A stretch of DNA of 8,384 nt from positions 1-8,384 of the forward strand of contig JADFON010000060.1 in NCBI GenBank assembly GCA_022562855.1, written 5' to 3'. Both the position numbers and the translations under genes were made by a program. The DNA is from Candidatus Zhuqueibacterota bacterium (lineage in GTDB: Bacteria; SM23-31). The notes under the pieces were generated by a model, which saw nothing but the letters and a program-made list of their open reading frames with translations, did no database searches and had not been told where the DNA came from. Positions 42 to 8,384 of the stretch are shown one piece after another (the stretch's first letter is position 1; every line of letters starts with the position of its first letter).

Positions 42-1124
42 TTATGAATCTGTTGTCATGTCAAATACATCTACCAGAGTATCACCTGCATCATCTGTGC
101 GATATGTAAACGCAAAGACAAAATTGCCATCCGATAGCAAGCGCTGCAGAGGTGGCAAAAAAATCTCTTCCTCAATAATTTCCACAGCTTTATCGTTCAT
201 ATACTGATAATATCGTCTCATTTCCTCTGCCCTTCCGGGAACCTGACTCGATATGCGCACCGGTGAACTTTCCGAGTATATTTTTTTGACGGAATCCGGA
301 ATTGCGACGGGAGAATAGGGGTATTCGATCTTATTATTGCTAAAATCATCCAAAGATGTAATATGAAGTTTATATAAGTATTGTTTATTCACAAGTCTCT
401 TGTCATGATCGGGATGCAGATAAACGACCTTTTCTTCCGGGGTCGTCGTCCATAAAAAAGCCCCTCTAAAAAACAACTCAAGACCAGCGTTATCACGAGA
501 CATCATGGAAGAATTCATATACTCGGCTATTTTACGGATATTTCCGTCATTGTCATAAAGCAAAAAGTAGTAAGACCGATATTCACTATCCATATTATTT
601 CTTCTGCCGCTAAATTCAATTATTAAATCACTTTCCTCAAATGATGCAGATTTAACCGGAGTTCCTATTGAAAAAGAGTCTCTTTCCACAACCGTTTTAT
701 ACTTTTCGTTAAGTCTTAAATTTCCCTTCGATAACAGCCGATGATCCGGCGAAAAAAGACTCAGCCCCCTTGAATCAATCACAGACAGGTTTCCCGAATA
801 TCCGACTGAAAGACTTCTTGATCTCCTAAATTCACCTGGACCCTGACCCGGTCTGCCGATTATATTTTCAGGATTTCCAGCATCATCATATACTTTGATC
901 CGGTCCTCATCAATCACAAAAATTTGCCCTTGATCGTTTACAGCAAGAGTCAATGGAAAAGCAAGCAGATATTCATCCGGCAGGTCTTTATCGCCAAATG
1001 ATAATTCGAAGGTCAACGCATTTTCAATTATATCATTCGATGCTGAATCATCAGAACCCGTTTGACCGGAGCAACCGTTTAATAAGAAAGCGAAAATAAT
1101 GATTTTTAAATTCGTTTTTGTCAA
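42..1124 (-). CDS. 6-bladed beta-propeller lipoprotein, function unknown
   Basis: The 360-residue product begins with a short lipoprotein signal: basic residues K3 and K7, a hydrophobic run at 8-15, and a lipobox L15-N16-G17-C18. It is probably anchored to a membrane facing the periplasm or cell surface; S19 at +2 does not suggest inner-membrane retention. Residues 36-130 match the 6-bladed beta-propeller family: a strand near 'LSFGD', then 'FVIDEDRIKVYD' (69-80), the signature GQGPGEF (93-99) and a second blade strand 'NLSVIDSRGLSLF' (112-124). The remainder is less conserved and ends in a blade-like 'VDVFD' (351-355). The start is TTG: an in-frame TAG lies four codons upstream and no ATG occurs near the signal peptide. 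A weak AGG at 1133-1135 sits 8 nt before it. The gene follows gpsA by 24 nt, so it is probably co-transcribed. No ligand or enzyme activity can be assigned. Confidence 0.85.
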   Translation of the reverse strand: MTKTNLKIIIFAFLLNGCSGQTGSDDSASNDIIENALTFELSFGDKDLPDEYLLAFPLTLAVNDQGQIFVIDEDRIKVYDDAGNPENIIGRPGQGPGEFRRSRSLSVGYSGNLSVIDSRGLSLFSPDHRLLSKGNLRLNEKYKTVVERDSFSIGTPVKSASFEESDLIIEFSGRRNNMDSEYRSYYFLLYDNDGNIRKIAEYMNSSMMSRDNAGLELFFRGAFLWTTTPEEKVVYLHPDHDKRLVNKQYLYKLHITSLDDFSNNKIEYPYSPVAIPDSVKKIYSESSPVRISSQVPGRAEEMRRYYQYMNDKAVEIIEEEIFLPPLQRLLSDGNFVFAFTYRTDDAGDTLVDVFDMTTDS

Positions 1125-1148: not shown

Positions 1149-2186
1149 TCAATGTTCTGTTTTCGGTTCACGGGTCATGAGGTCGATTGCCGCTTGTTTC
1201 GGGTCAAGGTCGTTGAACAGCATGTCGTACACTTTTTCCATTATCGGTGTTTCGACTCCTTCACGGATCGCCAGTTGACGGACAGATTCCGCAGTTTTGA
1301 CCCCTTCCGCAACGTTTACCATTTCCCCAAGAATTTCATCCAGCTTTCTGCCTTTACCCAATTCTTTACCGACATGGAGATTCCGGCTCAGTTTTCCCAT
1401 ACACGTCAGAATGAGGTCGCCGATACCGGAAAGACCCGCAAACGTCTTTGTGTCGGCGCCAAGTTTTACGCCGAGACGAGTCATTTCCGCGATTCCCCGT
1501 GTCAGAAGCGCCGCCTTCGAATTATCCCCGAACCCGACGCCGTCGACGATACCCGAAGCGATCGCCATTACGTTCTTGAACGACCCGCCGAACTCCACCC
1601 CCGCGACATCGGTATTGATATATACTCTGAAAGTGGGACCCATAAACAAATCTTGAATCTCACGCGCATACGATTCGTCTTCGGAAGCGGCAACAACCGC
1701 GGTCGGAACTTCACGGGCTACCTCGGCGGCAAAACTGGGACCCGACATCACCGCAAACCTGTTATCCGGCAGCGCAGGTATTTCCTCCTTGATAATCTCC
1801 GACATCCGCTTGAGCGTGTCATTCTCGATTCCTTTTGCGGCGCTGATTATCTTCTTTTTTCCAAGCGAAAGGTCTGGTGACAGGGACGCCGCCTGCTTTG
1901 CAACGCTTCGAAAAACATGACTTGGAATTACAAAAATGACGTAGTCGCCGGACGATAGCGCATCGGAAAGACTGCTGGTGATACTTATGCCGTCCGGAAG
2001 GTTGACACCGGGAAGAAACGTCTTATTTTCACGTTCTTCTTTCATCTTTCCGGCAAGATCCTCCTGGTATTCCCACAGGGTAACGGTATGCCCGTTCCTT
2101 GCCAGCAAAACCGCTATGGCTGTTCCCCAACTGCCACCCCCGAGGACACAGACATTACTTGTCTGAAAACTTGATTTCCGTGCCAT
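1149..2186 (-). CDS. gpsA: NAD(P)H-dependent glycerol-3-phosphate dehydrogenase GpsA
   Basis: This cytosolic enzyme reduces dihydroxyacetone phosphate to sn-glycerol 3-phosphate (EC 1.1.1.94), the backbone for phospholipids. At 345 residues it has the usual family length. The Rossmann nucleotide-binding motif is VLGGGSWGTA (14-23, GxGxxG at 16-21). Further family blocks are 'SAAKGIE' (115-121, with K118), 'MSGPSFAAEV' (147-156), 'FKNVMAIASG' (203-212, with the catalytic Lys at K204), 'KAALLTRGIAEM' (224-235), 'GLSGIGDLILTC' (251-262) and 'LSRNLHVGK' (266-274). The ATG at 2186 lies inside plsY, giving a 32-nt overlap. No later start codon occurs before the Rossmann motif, so the overlap is forced. 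No strong Shine-Dalgarno sequence precedes it, which fits translational coupling to plsY. Its product is the direct substrate of PlsY, so the pairing makes biochemical sense. Confidence 0.97.
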   Translation of the reverse strand: MARKSSFQTSNVCVLGGGSWGTAIAVLLARNGHTVTLWEYQEDLAGKMKEERENKTFLPGVNLPDGISITSSLSDALSSGDYVIFVIPSHVFRSVAKQAASLSPDLSLGKKKIISAAKGIENDTLKRMSEIIKEEIPALPDNRFAVMSGPSFAAEVAREVPTAVVAASEDESYAREIQDLFMGPTFRVYINTDVAGVEFGGSFKNVMAIASGIVDGVGFGDNSKAALLTRGIAEMTRLGVKLGADTKTFAGLSGIGDLILTCMGKLSRNLHVGKELGKGRKLDEILGEMVNVAEGVKTAESVRQLAIREGVETPIMEKVYDMLFNDLDPKQAAIDLMTREPKTEH

Positions 2187-2781
2187 TAATCAATCTTTGT
2201 ATATTGCTGCGATGAGTGAAAATGATAAGAACGCTTGTTAACAGCGTCAGGATAAAAAGTACGGTTCCTATGTCATGCATCAACAGGTATTTTCTTATGG
2301 CTACAATCATTACTAACGATACCGCACCTGTTATGGAAGTTGCCGAAACGTATTTTGTAACCATAAAGACAGTCGAAGCGACCGCAATACAGAGAATCAC
2401 TGAGACAGGCGACAAGCCAAAAAACATGCCTATCACCGTCAGGACGCCTTTGCCCCCCTTGAATCCGGAAAAGACCGTCCAAATATGTCCGATGACTGCG
2501 GACAGACCTGCCGCTATCCGTACAATATCATGGCTCACAGGAACATCGCCAAAGGCAATCCCGGAAATATAAACGGTTGCGACAAAACCTTTCAGGAGGT
2601 CGATGATTCCCACGACAGATGCGGCTTTCCATCCCAGCACCCGGAACACATTTGTAGCTCCCGCGTTTCCGCTGCCGTGTTCCCGGATATCGATACTTTT
2701 GAGTACTTTACCCGCTATTATGCTTGTGGGTAAAGAACCTGCAAGATAACTCAGAATTATTATTACGGCAATTGAAATCAA
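2155..2781 (-). CDS. plsY: Glycerol-3-phosphate acyltransferase PlsY
   Basis: This integral membrane enzyme transfers the acyl group from acyl-phosphate to sn-glycerol 3-phosphate, making lysophosphatidate (EC 2.3.1.275), the first acylation in the PlsX/PlsY route. The 208 residues are hydrophobic, with about five to seven membrane segments. The three cytoplasmic motifs are present: 'GSLPTSIIAGK' (15-25) with 'GSGNAGATNVFRVLG' (36-50); 'GHIWTVFSGFKGGKG' (98-112); and 'HRSNIQRLINGTE' (190-202). 'DLLKG' (61-65) and 'KYVS' (143-146) are also typical. T102 stands where many homologues have proline (GHxxP). The start is TTG at 2781-2779, 1 nt after the purM stop, and is supported by a GGAG six bases upstream. 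The 3' end overlaps gpsA by 32 nt. PlsX, which makes the acyl-phosphate, is not in the window. Confidence 0.96.
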   Translation of the reverse strand: MISIAVIIILSYLAGSLPTSIIAGKVLKSIDIREHGSGNAGATNVFRVLGWKAASVVGIIDLLKGFVATVYISGIAFGDVPVSHDIVRIAAGLSAVIGHIWTVFSGFKGGKGVLTVIGMFFGLSPVSVILCIAVASTVFMVTKYVSATSITGAVSLVMIVAIRKYLLMHDIGTVLFILTLLTSVLIIFTHRSNIQRLINGTEIKFSDK

Positions 2782-2798
2782 ATTAATCTCCGTCCTCC
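2782..2798 (-). promoter_or_regulatory. Ribosome-binding site that fixes the TTG start of plsY
   Basis: On the minus strand GGAG (2791-2788) lies 6 nt before TTG (2781-2779), and a second GGAGG (2798-2794) lies 12 nt before it. Both sit inside the last codons of purM (the ...SEDGD end). No ATG or GTG is nearby in frame, so TTG is the best start, and purM and plsY translation are likely coupled. Confidence 0.7.
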
Positions 2799-4339
2799 GA
2801 AATTTTCCCGATGACCGTAGTTTTCAAGTTTTTTTCATTCAAGATACTTCTGATTTCATCAACTTTTTTTTCATCCGCAACGACCGCAAGCCCTATCCCA
2901 AGATTGAAGACCCGTTTCATTTCATCATCGGGGATATTTCCATACATCTGAATAGTTTTAAAAATCGGCAGCCAGTCCCAGCTATTCCAATCGATGTCCG
3001 CTTTGAGACCGGACGTCAGGAGTCTGCCGATATTACCGAGAATTCCTCCCCCGGTAATATGCGCAATACCGTGCACAAGACCCCGTTCGACAAGTTCATA
3101 AACTTCAGGATAATAACACTTATGAACCTTCAACAGCTCCTCACCGGCGCTCACGTTCAGACCGGGAATTGTCGAGTCCACATTCAGTCCTGCCTTTTCA
3201 AACAACACTTTTCTCGCCAGCGAAAACCCGTTTGTGTGAAGACCGGTAGAAGGCAGACCGATAATTACATCATCTTCGGCGATCCTGCCGCCGTCGAGAA
3301 TATTCTTCCGGTCGACTATTCCGACAATCGTGCCGGATATATCGTAATCTCCTTCACTGTATAAACCGGGCATTTCAGCGGTTTCACCGCCGATAAGGGC
3401 GCAATCCGCCTTTTCACATGCTTCTGCCAACCCGGTTACGACATCCTCGATGATGGATGGTTGGAGTTTGCCAAACGCAAGATAATCGAGGAAAAACAGG
3501 GGTTTGGCGCCACAACAAAGTATATCGTTTATACAATGATTTACCAGGTCGCTGCCTATTGATTTGTGACGCCCGGCGGCGACCGCCACCATCAGCTTCG
3601 TTCCGACCCCGTCCACGCTTGAAACGAGAACCGGTTGTTCGTAGCCGGTCAGGTCGGGCGCAAAAAATCCGCCGAACTTCCCCAATTCGGACAGAACATT
3701 GATCCCGTACGTCTTTTTGACAAGGGATTTTATTCGTTCAACGACCTCATCACCCTTATCGATATCCACTCCCGCATCCCGGTATGTTACGCTCTCCATG
3801 TGTTCACCGGAACCGCTATCCTGAAGTTGGTTTACATGCCTGCTTCTCACTTCAAAGAGAAAATCCCGTATCCATTGTTCCTTGTAGTCCGGGTATGTCC
3901 AGGGCAGCGGGTGATATTCTCCATCTTTAAGAATTAAATTGCAATCTCCGTAAATACCCTTTTCAAGATATATCCTGTGACTGAAATTCTTTGTCGAAGC
4001 CAATATGATATTTGCTTCACCGATATACCCTGGATCGATATTGACTGTTCTTTTGCCGTCGACAGACGTATCGGTTTCGTATTTAGTTGTGGACAATTTT
4101 ATGTCCGCGAGTGTTTCACGCGGAATAAGCTTCTTAAAACTGAAAAAAATCTTTTTTAGGTCGTCCCCCATTTCTTCCCGGTAATAATCGGTAAAGTTAA
4201 AATCAAATTCGGGAGTCCGGAAATCGATGGGACCGAATTGACCGGTAAGAAATCTTTCGGCAGATTGAAGCCGGCTGGAATCCCGGTAGGCAACCGCGGC
4301 GATCAGTTTGACTTTTTGTGGAGTTTGTGGTTTTATCAT
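2783..4339 (-). CDS. purM: DUF4416-PurM fusion: phosphoribosylformylglycinamidine cyclo-ligase (AIR synthetase) with N-terminal DUF4416 domain
   Basis: The 518 residues fall into two parts. Residues 8-168 match my recollection of the DUF4416 family (no known function): 'FGPIDF' (35-40), 'FTDYYREEMG' (49-58), 'LADIKLSTTKYE' (77-88), 'VNIDPGYIGEANIILASTKN' (99-118), 'HRIYLEKGIYGD' (121-132) and 'LPWTYPDYK' (145-153). Residues 181-518 form a complete PurM (338 aa; E. coli PurM is 345): 'SSVDGVGTKL' (240-249), 'DLVNHCINDIL' (264-274), 'GGETAEMPGLY' (317-327), 'GLPSTGLHTNGFSLAR' (361-376), 'HITGGGILGNIGR' (427-439) and 'FNLGIGL' (478-484). PurM converts FGAM plus ATP to AIR in purine synthesis (EC 6.3.3.1). 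No stop separates the halves; the linker is short and polar (about 170-180). An internal ATG with a good ribosome site at the junction could also make free PurM. No strong ribosome site precedes the first ATG. The PurM call is firm; the role of DUF4416 is unknown. Confidence 0.95.
   Translation of the reverse strand: MIKPQTPQKVKLIAAVAYRDSSRLQSAERFLTGQFGPIDFRTPEFDFNFTDYYREEMGDDLKKIFFSFKKLIPRETLADIKLSTTKYETDTSVDGKRTVNIDPGYIGEANIILASTKNFSHRIYLEKGIYGDCNLILKDGEYHPLPWTYPDYKEQWIRDFLFEVRSRHVNQLQDSGSGEHMESVTYRDAGVDIDKGDEVVERIKSLVKKTYGINVLSELGKFGGFFAPDLTGYEQPVLVSSVDGVGTKLMVAVAAGRHKSIGSDLVNHCINDILCCGAKPLFFLDYLAFGKLQPSIIEDVVTGLAEACEKADCALIGGETAEMPGLYSEGDYDISGTIVGIVDRKNILDGGRIAEDDVIIGLPSTGLHTNGFSLARKVLFEKAGLNVDSTIPGLNVSAGEELLKVHKCYYPEVYELVERGLVHGIAHITGGGILGNIGRLLTSGLKADIDWNSWDWLPIFKTIQMYGNIPDDEMKRVFNLGIGLAVVADEKKVDEIRSILNEKNLKTTVIGKISEDGD
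3797..3808 (-). promoter_or_regulatory. Possible internal translation start for stand-alone PurM
   Basis: Codon 181 of the fusion is ATG (3799-3797), exactly where family PurM proteins begin. On the minus strand GGTGA (3808-3804) lies 4 nt upstream. Because GGTGA pairs with the 5' side of the anti-Shine-Dalgarno sequence, this corresponds to normal spacing of about 7 nt from the GG. Free PurM of 338 residues could therefore be made as well as the fusion. Use of this start is inferred. Confidence 0.45.
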
Positions 4340-4654: not shown

Positions 4655-6445
4655 TTATTCCGAGTACATTTTATCGATCTGCTTTGCAAATTTCTTTTCC
4701 ACAACACTTCGTTTTACCTTAAAGGTCGGGGTAAGTTCGCCGTTTTCCTGTGTGAGTTCGTTCTCAAGAATAATGAATTTTTTTATGACCTCGAAGTTTG
4801 ACAGATCAGCCGATAATCTTTTTATCTCGCTATCGATGAGTTCGTATGTTTCGGGGCGTTTTGCCATCTCTTTGCGCGAAGCAGCGGGACAGTCAATCGA
4901 TTTGAGGTATTCCTCCAGGTTATTATATGCAGGTACGACTACGGCGGAAGGGAACTTCCTTCGGTCGCCTATCATCATGATCTGCTCAATGTACCTGCTG
5001 ACAGCCATCAGGTTTTCGATAGGCTGCGGCGCGATATTTTTTCCGCTGGATGTAACAATAAGGTTTTTCTTGCGGTCGGTTATTGTCAGGAATCCGTCTT
5101 TGTCGATAAACCCGATATCGCCGGTATAAAACCAGCCGTTTTCGTCCATTACTTTTTTTGTCTCTTCGGGTTTGTTGTAATACCCTTTCATGATGTGGAG
5201 ACCGCGTGTGCAAATCTCACCGTCATCAGCAATTTTCAATTCGATACCGGGCGGCGGTTTTCCCACGGTTCCCGGACGGCAGTCCCCGGGCGTGTTGACC
5301 GCGACTAACGCGGCTGTTTCTGTTAGACCGTAACCTTCGAGGATCGTAATTCCGGCATATGCAAAAAATTCGGCTATCTCTTTTGGCAAAGGCGCTCCAC
5401 CTGAAACAAAAAACCTGATCTTCCCACCCGTACGCATTCGAAGTTTTTTGAACACCAGCTTGTCCGCCAGCGCAAATTTTCTTTTATTCACGTAGGAAAC
5501 ATGCCCCTTATTCGTGCTCAAATAGTGGGCTTTCCCCGCACGAAGGCACCATCTGAATAAAATCTTTCTGATTACGGAGCTTTTCGCCACATTATCTTGA
5601 ACAAGAGCGTACATTTTTTCATACAGTCTTGGAACGCTGATCATGACGGTCGGATGCACTTCACGCATATTGTCACCAACTTTTTCGGTGCTTTCAGCAT
5701 AAGCGATAGTCGATCCTGCACTCAGCGGGAGGTAATATCCTGCCATTCGTTCATACACATGGCTCAGAGGCAAAAAAGAAAGAAACAGGTCGTTTTCGCT
5801 GAAACTGATTATTTCTTTTACGCTCTTGATCTCTTCAATAAAATTGGTGTGCGTCAGCATCACTCCCTTCGGTACCCCTGTTGTGCCGGAGGTATAGATA
5901 ATTGTCGCGAGATCGGAGGCATCGAGTTCCTTACGCCGGTTAATTAGAAAATCCGGGTTGTTTTTTCGAGATTCTTCGCCTTTCGATTTAAAATCCTGAA
6001 ATTCGGTCGCGATTTTATGAGGATCGTCTTCGGGATGAAACAAAGTTATCACCCTTTTGAGGTCTTTCAAATTATTAAATATATCATTTATCGACGCTAA
6101 ATGTTCCGGCTGGGAAAGGACAACTATTTTACTGTGAGAGTCGTTGAGTATATACTCTATCTGCTTTGACGACATCGTGGGATAAACAGGGACCGTTAAA
6201 CAACCGAGAGACAGTGCGGCAAGATCTGTATACACCCATTCAGGTCTGTTCTCGGAAAGAATCGCGATTTTGTCATTTTTCTGAAGTCCAGCGTCGTGAA
6301 AAGCATAGGCAAGATCCGCAACTGTTTCGGCAAAGCTGCCGTAGGTAATATCGGTATACACCCCGTCAATTTTCTGCATAAGGGCAGGTTTATCTCGAAA
6401 TTTCTCCGCAATATGAAAAAAAGCGTCGGCAAGTGTTTCGGGCAT
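4655..6445 (-). CDS. fadD: Long-chain fatty acid-CoA ligase (AMP-binding, FadD15-like)
   Basis: This 596-residue adenylate-forming enzyme activates fatty acids to acyl-AMP and then acyl-CoA (EC 6.2.1.3). It is probably cytosolic or membrane-associated; no transmembrane segment or signal peptide is evident. The ANL-superfamily motifs are in order: 'YTSGTTGVPKG' P-loop (184-194), 'LPLSHVYER' (225-233), 'VSGGAPLP' (347-354), 'EGYGLTET' (370-377), 'YTGD' (440-443), 'DRKKNLIVTSSGKNIAPQPIE' split here as DRKKNLIV (457-464) and SGKNIAPQPIE (467-477), and 'LTPTFKVKR' (571-579) with the likely catalytic Lys at K576. Length and the 'LTPTxKVKR' ending fit the roughly 600-residue FadD15-like subgroup rather than E. 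coli FadD. The ATG at 6445 has GGAG (6455-6452) 6 nt upstream. It may feed beta-oxidation or recycle fatty acids into lipids next to plsY and gpsA. Chain-length preference cannot be read from sequence. Confidence 0.94.
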   Translation of the reverse strand: MPETLADAFFHIAEKFRDKPALMQKIDGVYTDITYGSFAETVADLAYAFHDAGLQKNDKIAILSENRPEWVYTDLAALSLGCLTVPVYPTMSSKQIEYILNDSHSKIVVLSQPEHLASINDIFNNLKDLKRVITLFHPEDDPHKIATEFQDFKSKGEESRKNNPDFLINRRKELDASDLATIIYTSGTTGVPKGVMLTHTNFIEEIKSVKEIISFSENDLFLSFLPLSHVYERMAGYYLPLSAGSTIAYAESTEKVGDNMREVHPTVMISVPRLYEKMYALVQDNVAKSSVIRKILFRWCLRAGKAHYLSTNKGHVSYVNKRKFALADKLVFKKLRMRTGGKIRFFVSGGAPLPKEIAEFFAYAGITILEGYGLTETAALVAVNTPGDCRPGTVGKPPPGIELKIADDGEICTRGLHIMKGYYNKPEETKKVMDENGWFYTGDIGFIDKDGFLTITDRKKNLIVTSSGKNIAPQPIENLMAVSRYIEQIMMIGDRRKFPSAVVVPAYNNLEEYLKSIDCPAASRKEMAKRPETYELIDSEIKRLSADLSNFEVIKKFIILENELTQENGELTPTFKVKRSVVEKKFAKQIDKMYSE

Positions 6446-6988: not shown

Positions 6989-8384
6989 ATGAAAATATTC
7001 AAGCTGCATCCTCAAAATTTACACTATTTATTTCTGTTTTTCTTTCTTTCCGTCTTTATTACCGGTTTCAACTGCTCAGGCACACCCGGTACAGTTGTTC
7101 CGGTCCAGACGTTTACAACCGATTTTCCAGAACCTGCCGGAAGGGCGGTAACCATTGAAGATTATTACAGGAATAATTCTATCGGCAGACCGTCAATTTC
7201 TCCAAACGGACGGTGGGTATCGTTTTCGTACTCGTATCCTGACGAGGAAAACAACAACAGCCGGAGTGAGATATGGCTTGTTCCCTCCGACGGGTCGGCA
7301 GAACCAAGACGGCTGACTTCACAAAACTCGAATAGTTCGAGACCCCGGTGGACTGAGGATGGTCTGTTAATGTATACGATTCAGAGTGAAACCTGGTATC
7401 TCGATGTCGAAAAACCGAATTCGAGACCCTTTCAGAGCAAAAACAGGAACGATACGGCAAATTTCAGTCCTGATAAGAAATGGATAGCGGAGACCCGCGA
7501 TACACCGGTTCCAAAAAGTGAAAAATCATACGCTTCGGACTTTATCCAAAGACACGAAGAGAGGTTTGAAGGGATCCAATTTGACTGGATGAATTTTCAG
7601 AGGGACGGCAGGGATATGCCGATTCCCGATTCAAGGGATCCAAGCGTCAATCCATCTACGGAAATTTTTATACTACCTGCCGAAGGGGGCGAAGCAAAAC
7701 AATTGACCGACCTGGATTTGAGACCTTCCGGTATTACGTGGCGACCGGACGGAAGGGAGCTTGTTTTTACGGCGGATTCGCATTACCGTGACGAGATGAC
7801 GTACGGAAGATCCGATCTGTGGACGGTGACAATCGAAGGCGATGTGACGCGGATTACCGATGACGGTTACACATACGGCAGTACGGGATATTCGCCGGAC
7901 GGAAAATATATTTCCTACACAAGGGGTTATGGCACGGATATGGTCATAGCGGGACGAATGGACAACGGCGGACCGAGAGACTTGTTTATCATGCCGGCTG
8001 ATGGAGGAACGCCGGTAAACCTGACCGCCTCGTGGGACCTGTCGCCCGGAAGCCCGCGGTGGAGTCCGGACAGTCAATTTATTTATTTTACCGCCGGCAT
8101 TGGCGGCAGCACACATTTATTCCGGGTATCAGCTGACGGCGGCGAGGTTCAACAGGTTACATCGGGTGAACGCAGGCTTGGCAGTCTGACAATAGATAAT
8201 GATTTCAAGACAATGGCGTATACGGTTGGCAGAATTGAAGGACCTTCTGAGATTTACACTGCCGATATCGACGGGTCGAACGAAAAACAGATTACCGGAA
8301 TGAGCAATGATTTCACAACCGAAATAACATTCAGCAAAGCGGAACGTCTGCTTTATGCGAGTTATGACGGTACTCCCATCGAGG
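6989..8384 (+). CDS. Exported S9-family (prolyl oligopeptidase-type) peptidase, N-terminal propeller part; cut by window end
   Basis: The frame is open for 465 codons to the window edge. Residues 1-28 look like a signal peptide with the hydrophobic core at 11-27. C29 follows 'TGFN', which is a poor lipobox, so lipidation is uncertain. The rest is a beta-propeller of PD40/WD40-like blades, with '(S/R)PDG' turns at 'SISPNGRWVSFS' (69-80), 'RWTEDGLLMYT' (120-130), 'FSPDKKWIAET' (159-169), 'WRPDGRELVFT' (251-261), 'YSPDGKYISYT' (301-311) and 'WSPDSQFIYFT' (358-368). 'FDWMNFQRDGRD' (198-209) and the final 'ASYDGTPIE' (457-465) match the S9 acylaminoacyl-peptidase/dipeptidyl-peptidase pattern, the latter being the usual lead into the hydrolase domain. 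The catalytic Ser-Asp-His would lie beyond the window. The ATG has GGAGG 5 nt upstream. A TolB-like propeller alone is the main alternative. The probable role is periplasmic peptide degradation. Confidence 0.85.
   Translation, partial: MKIFKLHPQNLHYLFLFFFLSVFITGFNCSGTPGTVVPVQTFTTDFPEPAGRAVTIEDYYRNNSIGRPSISPNGRWVSFSYSYPDEENNNSRSEIWLVPSDGSAEPRRLTSQNSNSSRPRWTEDGLLMYTIQSETWYLDVEKPNSRPFQSKNRNDTANFSPDKKWIAETRDTPVPKSEKSYASDFIQRHEERFEGIQFDWMNFQRDGRDMPIPDSRDPSVNPSTEIFILPAEGGEAKQLTDLDLRPSGITWRPDGRELVFTADSHYRDEMTYGRSDLWTVTIEGDVTRITDDGYTYGSTGYSPDGKYISYTRGYGTDMVIAGRMDNGGPRDLFIMPADGGTPVNLTASWDLSPGSPRWSPDSQFIYFTAGIGGSTHLFRVSADGGEVQQVTSGERRLGSLTIDNDFKTMAYTVGRIEGPSEIYTADIDGSNEKQITGMSNDFTTEITFSKAERLLYASYDGTPIE

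Follow-up and report, generated by a model that had tools for sequence, protein, structure and literature searches.

The window, the whole stretch of DNA analysed here, is an entire contig of 8384 bases and was found to carry a gene that reads as a single open frame from ATG to stop, in which a domain of the uncharacterised family DUF4416 precedes PurM (Table 1). In the preliminary description this gene had been taken for an in-frame fusion, with a DUF4416-like domain in residues 8-168, a short polar linker and a complete AIR synthetase in residues 181-518, and this architecture was confirmed: the frame is open throughout, with no stop or frameshift between the halves, and the linker is short and polar and varies among relatives. 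The DUF4416 half matched its Pfam model (positions 2-161 of 162) with an E-value of 3e-57 and 193.5 bits, against a gathering cut-off of 27, and the purM equivalog TIGR00878 was matched over model positions 1-331 of 332 with 394 bits, against a curated cut-off of 236. The Pfam domains AIRS and AIRS_C were located at residues 237-342 and 355-517, respectively. Profile searches matched the N-terminal partner to DUF4416 only and to no enzyme of the purine pathway. No regulatory RNA or promoter signal above chance was found 5' of the gene.

Table 1 Features of the 8384-base window. Positions are those of the whole window.
Feature	Position	Strand	Basis or remark
Fused DUF4416–PurM gene	2783..4339	-	518 codons; Pfam and NCBIfam matches
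DUF4416 domain (PF14385), residues 9-167	3839..4315	-	Pfam
Linker, residues 168-183	3791..3838	-	Between domain matches
PurM (phosphoribosylformylglycinamidine cyclo-ligase) domain, residues 184-515	2795..3790	-	NCBIfam match, conserved positions
Met181, inside linker	3797-3799	-	Possible relic of stand-alone purM start
Long-chain acyl-CoA synthetase (fadD-like), upstream block gene	4655..6445	-	Pfam, NCBIfam
plsY, glycerol-3-phosphate acyltransferase	2155..2781	-	Pfam, NCBIfam; 1 nt after fusion gene
gpsA, glycerol-3-phosphate dehydrogenase	1149..2186	-	Pfam, NCBIfam; overlaps plsY by 32 nt
Predicted lipoprotein, after gpsA	42-1124	-	Weak six-bladed beta-propeller match (DUF5128)
Secreted PD40/DPP IV-like beta-propeller peptidase, N-terminal part	6989-8383	+	Cut by contig end

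Both halves are well preserved. All 13 residues that are invariant across 35 aligned DUF4416 domains are kept (F47, Y52, Y53, E56, G58, K81, E88, R97, N100, D102, G104, K117 and R165), and, of 70 columns found near-invariant among 25 stand-alone PurMs, the PurM half deviates at none; it aligns end to end with PurMs of solved structure, the best being 2btu. The fusion is genuine and conserved, and its PurM half has the look of a fully functional enzyme. In the draft genome from which the contig derives (2.5 Mb in 491 contigs, 80% complete), it was the only DUF4416 and the only PurM found. PurL and PurH were also detected, PurL with a score under its model's curated cut-off yet a match to 699 of 718 positions. 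With both present, the organism probably has an intact de novo purine pathway, which must then use the fused PurM.

The same architecture, which the preliminary description had proposed to look for elsewhere, was found in five more genomes. A complete fusion of 514 aa, 59% identical, occurs in the window's family (G002), and one of 462 aa, truncated on the 5' side where its contig ends, in a different family of the same class (G003). The other three (G405, G406 and G407) are in-frame fusions from a single genus, g348, of family f248 in a different phylum, and f248 also includes relatives in which DUF4416 and purM are separate genes. An assembly artefact or frameshift is ruled out by the recurrence of the two-domain frame in independent genomes. 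Open-frame lengths had suggested further fusions in G314, G317, G360 and G381, which proved on reading the DNA to be separate genes, and none of about 120 other DUF4416 proteins sampled outside the fusion-bearing groups was fused to PurM. In a tree of both domains combined the six fusions need two origins; forcing them into one clade cost 113 log-likelihood units (p-AU 6e-50), and a single origin was rejected. Within the window's class the three fusions form one group, moderately supported (94/96), which makes one origin there likely though not certain. The DUF4416–PurM fusion has arisen at least twice independently.

Selection on the two halves was compared among the fusions. In those of g348, dN was about 0.12-0.16 and dS 0.8-1.8 in both halves, on which purifying selection is about equally strong; the linker changes some 2-3 times faster and is variable in length. 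Between the window and G002, where synonymous sites are saturated, the amino-acid-changing rate was again similar in the two halves (0.37 and 0.30) and far higher in the linker. As both halves are constrained while the linker varies, DUF4416 is a working part of the protein and not a scar.

The genes around the fusion belong to a conserved block of the order fadD–DUF4416–purM–(plsY)–gpsA, which in many genomes is followed by a class II tRNA synthetase, asparaginyl to judge by its sequence, an acylphosphatase and a phosphoribosyltransferase. The block is as much one of glycerophospholipid synthesis (fadD, plsY, gpsA) as of purine synthesis; purC lies between plsY and gpsA in part of the phylum of genome G078. 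Whether stand-alone DUF4416 genes adjoin pur genes had been raised in the preliminary description, and such genes indeed lie directly 5' of purM in numerous genomes from at least two further phyla. In the phylum of G050 this arrangement, on the same strand, was counted in at least 58 of 82 genomes, three fusions and two directly read loci included, and in the phylum of G078 in 17 of 40; the same order is seen at a contig end in G006. The two frames overlap in 30 of 50 measured pairs, by 4 nt in 11, as determined from the first possible starts and not from mapped ones. A four-base overlap is typical of coupled translation. Overlap of purM with gpsA is likewise common in the block, and overlap with DUF4416 is therefore not special. 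In five of the 50 pairs the DUF4416 stop is immediately followed by an in-frame TTG or GTG start of purM, so that loss of one stop would fuse the pair.

Each gene also occurs in the block without the other. DUF4416 is present without purM in G290, G291 and G005; in the last of these, from a third family of the window's class, DUF4416 and purM are on different contigs, and in G004, of the same family as G005, DUF4416 is followed by plsY. At loci L212 and L213 the block has DUF4416 and no purM; in relatives from that family a divergent PurM, about 30% identical, is encoded at another place. Conversely, purM is present without DUF4416 in family f224 and in G195 and G355, which have none nearby. 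No DUF4416 at all was found in f224, whose loci (L204, L205, L209) keep the order fadD–purM–plsY–gpsA, a natural absence of the domain.

In a sample of 290 genomes from across the bacterial families, 127 had DUF4416, and most of the genes for it sit away from purM in unrelated contexts. PurM was found in 112 of the 127 genomes with DUF4416 versus 133 of the 163 without it, and presence of the two was not associated across the 290 genomes (Fisher p = 0.14). The remaining 15 DUF4416 genomes have no detectable PurM; some of these are at least 90% complete (for example G095, G098 and G126) and gave no match at E 1e-20, a search that a divergent PurM could escape. In family f118, DUF4416 is the last gene of a cluster pyrF-pyrE-purM-purN-x-purH-(x)-dCMP deaminase-DUF4416, with gene names read from the sequences and, for PurM and PurH, also assigned by comparison. 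The purM-paired copies form a largely separate cluster (44 rows, SH-aLRT 92), and many genomes of the phylum of G050 hold a second DUF4416 away from the purM-linked one. In another branch (13 rows, SH-aLRT 99), to which the second copy of G050 belongs, almost every member is immediately preceded by an N-acetyltransferase-like gene (Acetyltransf_2); such a gene lies directly 5' of DUF4416 at 11 loci (L100, L105, L110, L112, L119, L120, L133, L137, L141, L146 and L149). YicC adjoins DUF4416 at seven loci, six of which (L043, L068, L102, L125, L142, L151) have the order DUF4416, yicC, guanylate kinase-like gene and one (L104) lacks the kinase. A 4Fe-4S protein gene is directly upstream at eight loci (L044, L054, L061, L072, L093, L104, L121, L132), where all eight match Fer4_16 and form one cluster of related genes, and radical SAM genes adjoin other DUF4416 genes.

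Sequence searches of the PDB disclosed no relative of DUF4416, and a structure predicted from a three-sequence alignment (window, L032, L033) had a mean pLDDT of 34, too low to be of use. No DUF4416 was found on viral contigs. A literature search by name returned no paper on DUF4416; the sole paper found with PF14385 concerns, to judge by its title and abstract, the stabilisation of swine faecal samples. Searches on the block and on the fusion gave nothing useful.

Observation covers both domains, their conservation, the pairing of their genes and two origins. The account to which we lean is that a coupled DUF4416–purM pair was probably fused by loss of a stop codon, with PurM making AIR and DUF4416 having a job of its own at a 1:1 ratio. 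One gene would then give one two-domain protein, the C-terminal half of which would be the cell's PurM, closing FGAM to AIR, as suggested by the family match and by PurL and PurH in the genome, and the N-terminal half an intact DUF4416 with its own selected function. Neighbouring genes, DUF4416 then purM with overlapping or abutting frames as seen in relatives, would have been the starting point, and with a purM start lying in frame just after the DUF4416 stop, the loss of a single stop codon would suffice. Fusion would fix the two proteins at 1:1 and in the same place, and a benefit of co-production may be supposed. The biochemical function of DUF4416 would be separate from cyclo-ligase chemistry and dispensable for it, because most PurM enzymes have no DUF4416; the genomes with one of the two and not the other, and the lack of association between them, fit such independence.

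A closer relationship is possible, although clearly less probable, in which DUF4416 would in these lineages be dedicated to working with PurM, binding the enzyme, its substrate or its product and regulating, stabilising or channelling the conversion of FGAM to AIR, a partnership that fusion would make permanent. At least two independent fusions together with the pairing across at least two large phyla exceed the needs of mere co-expression and keep such a partnership in play, and the separate clustering of paired copies in genomes that often hold a second DUF4416 elsewhere, the purC gene in the block of part of one phylum and the f118 cluster point the same way. Against it stand the blocks that have either gene without the other and the lack of association between the two across the sampled genomes. 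The proposal of the preliminary description that DUF4416 works with purine synthesis, for example in channelling, regulation or complex assembly, is affected by the same observations: the genomic link to purM holds, whereas the family occurs mostly in other contexts, and a role as a general purine-synthesis factor is only partly supported. It is conceivable, if rather doubtful, that in the purM-linked branch PurM has an accessory subunit so far overlooked, one that acts on the step from FGAM to AIR or on what becomes of AIR and that was fused to PurM at least twice.

Since fadD lies upstream and plsY and gpsA downstream of DUF4416 in several phyla, even without purM, DUF4416 might instead serve phospholipid synthesis (acyl-CoA, glycerol-3-phosphate, PlsY), the process on which the block centres, with purM as a joined passenger; this seems improbable, as in most genomes DUF4416 is away from these genes and the fusions seen were all to PurM and none to PlsY, GpsA or FadD. 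The position of Met181 is that at which stand-alone PurM begins, and an internal ATG there could give a separate PurM besides the fusion. An equivalent Met is absent from the linkers of G002, G003, G405, G406 and G407, which makes two products quite improbable. Least probable, and already disfavoured, is a neutral accident with the DUF4416 half carried along without a role: one or few mutations would be enough to fuse overlapping or abutting frames, but that half retains all its invariant residues and its dN/dS is about equal to that of PurM in the g348 fusions.

The fusion delineates a clear route from overlapping neighbour genes to a fused protein, both states of which are present among relatives. 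The conserved neighbour and the two fusions also provide a first lead on the unstudied DUF4416, namely a concrete partner, PurM, with an established assay. Compared with other DUF4416 proteins (PF14385), the DUF4416 half of the fusion shares the full-length domain and all invariant residues, but those proteins stand alone, mostly at about 175-200 aa, whereas that of the window is fused to PurM. Stand-alone bacterial PurMs (TIGR00878; 2btu, 1cli) have in common with it the full-length cyclo-ligase and the near-invariant positions, and differ in having no N-terminal DUF4416. In eukaryotes AIRS lies within multifunctional purine proteins, GARS-AIRS and GARS-AIRS-GART (yeast Ade5,7 and animal GART). 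The window protein resembles these in that PurM/AIRS is one domain of a longer protein, but there AIRS is joined to purine enzymes whose chemistry is known, whereas its partner here is the uncharacterised DUF4416, placed at the N-terminus.
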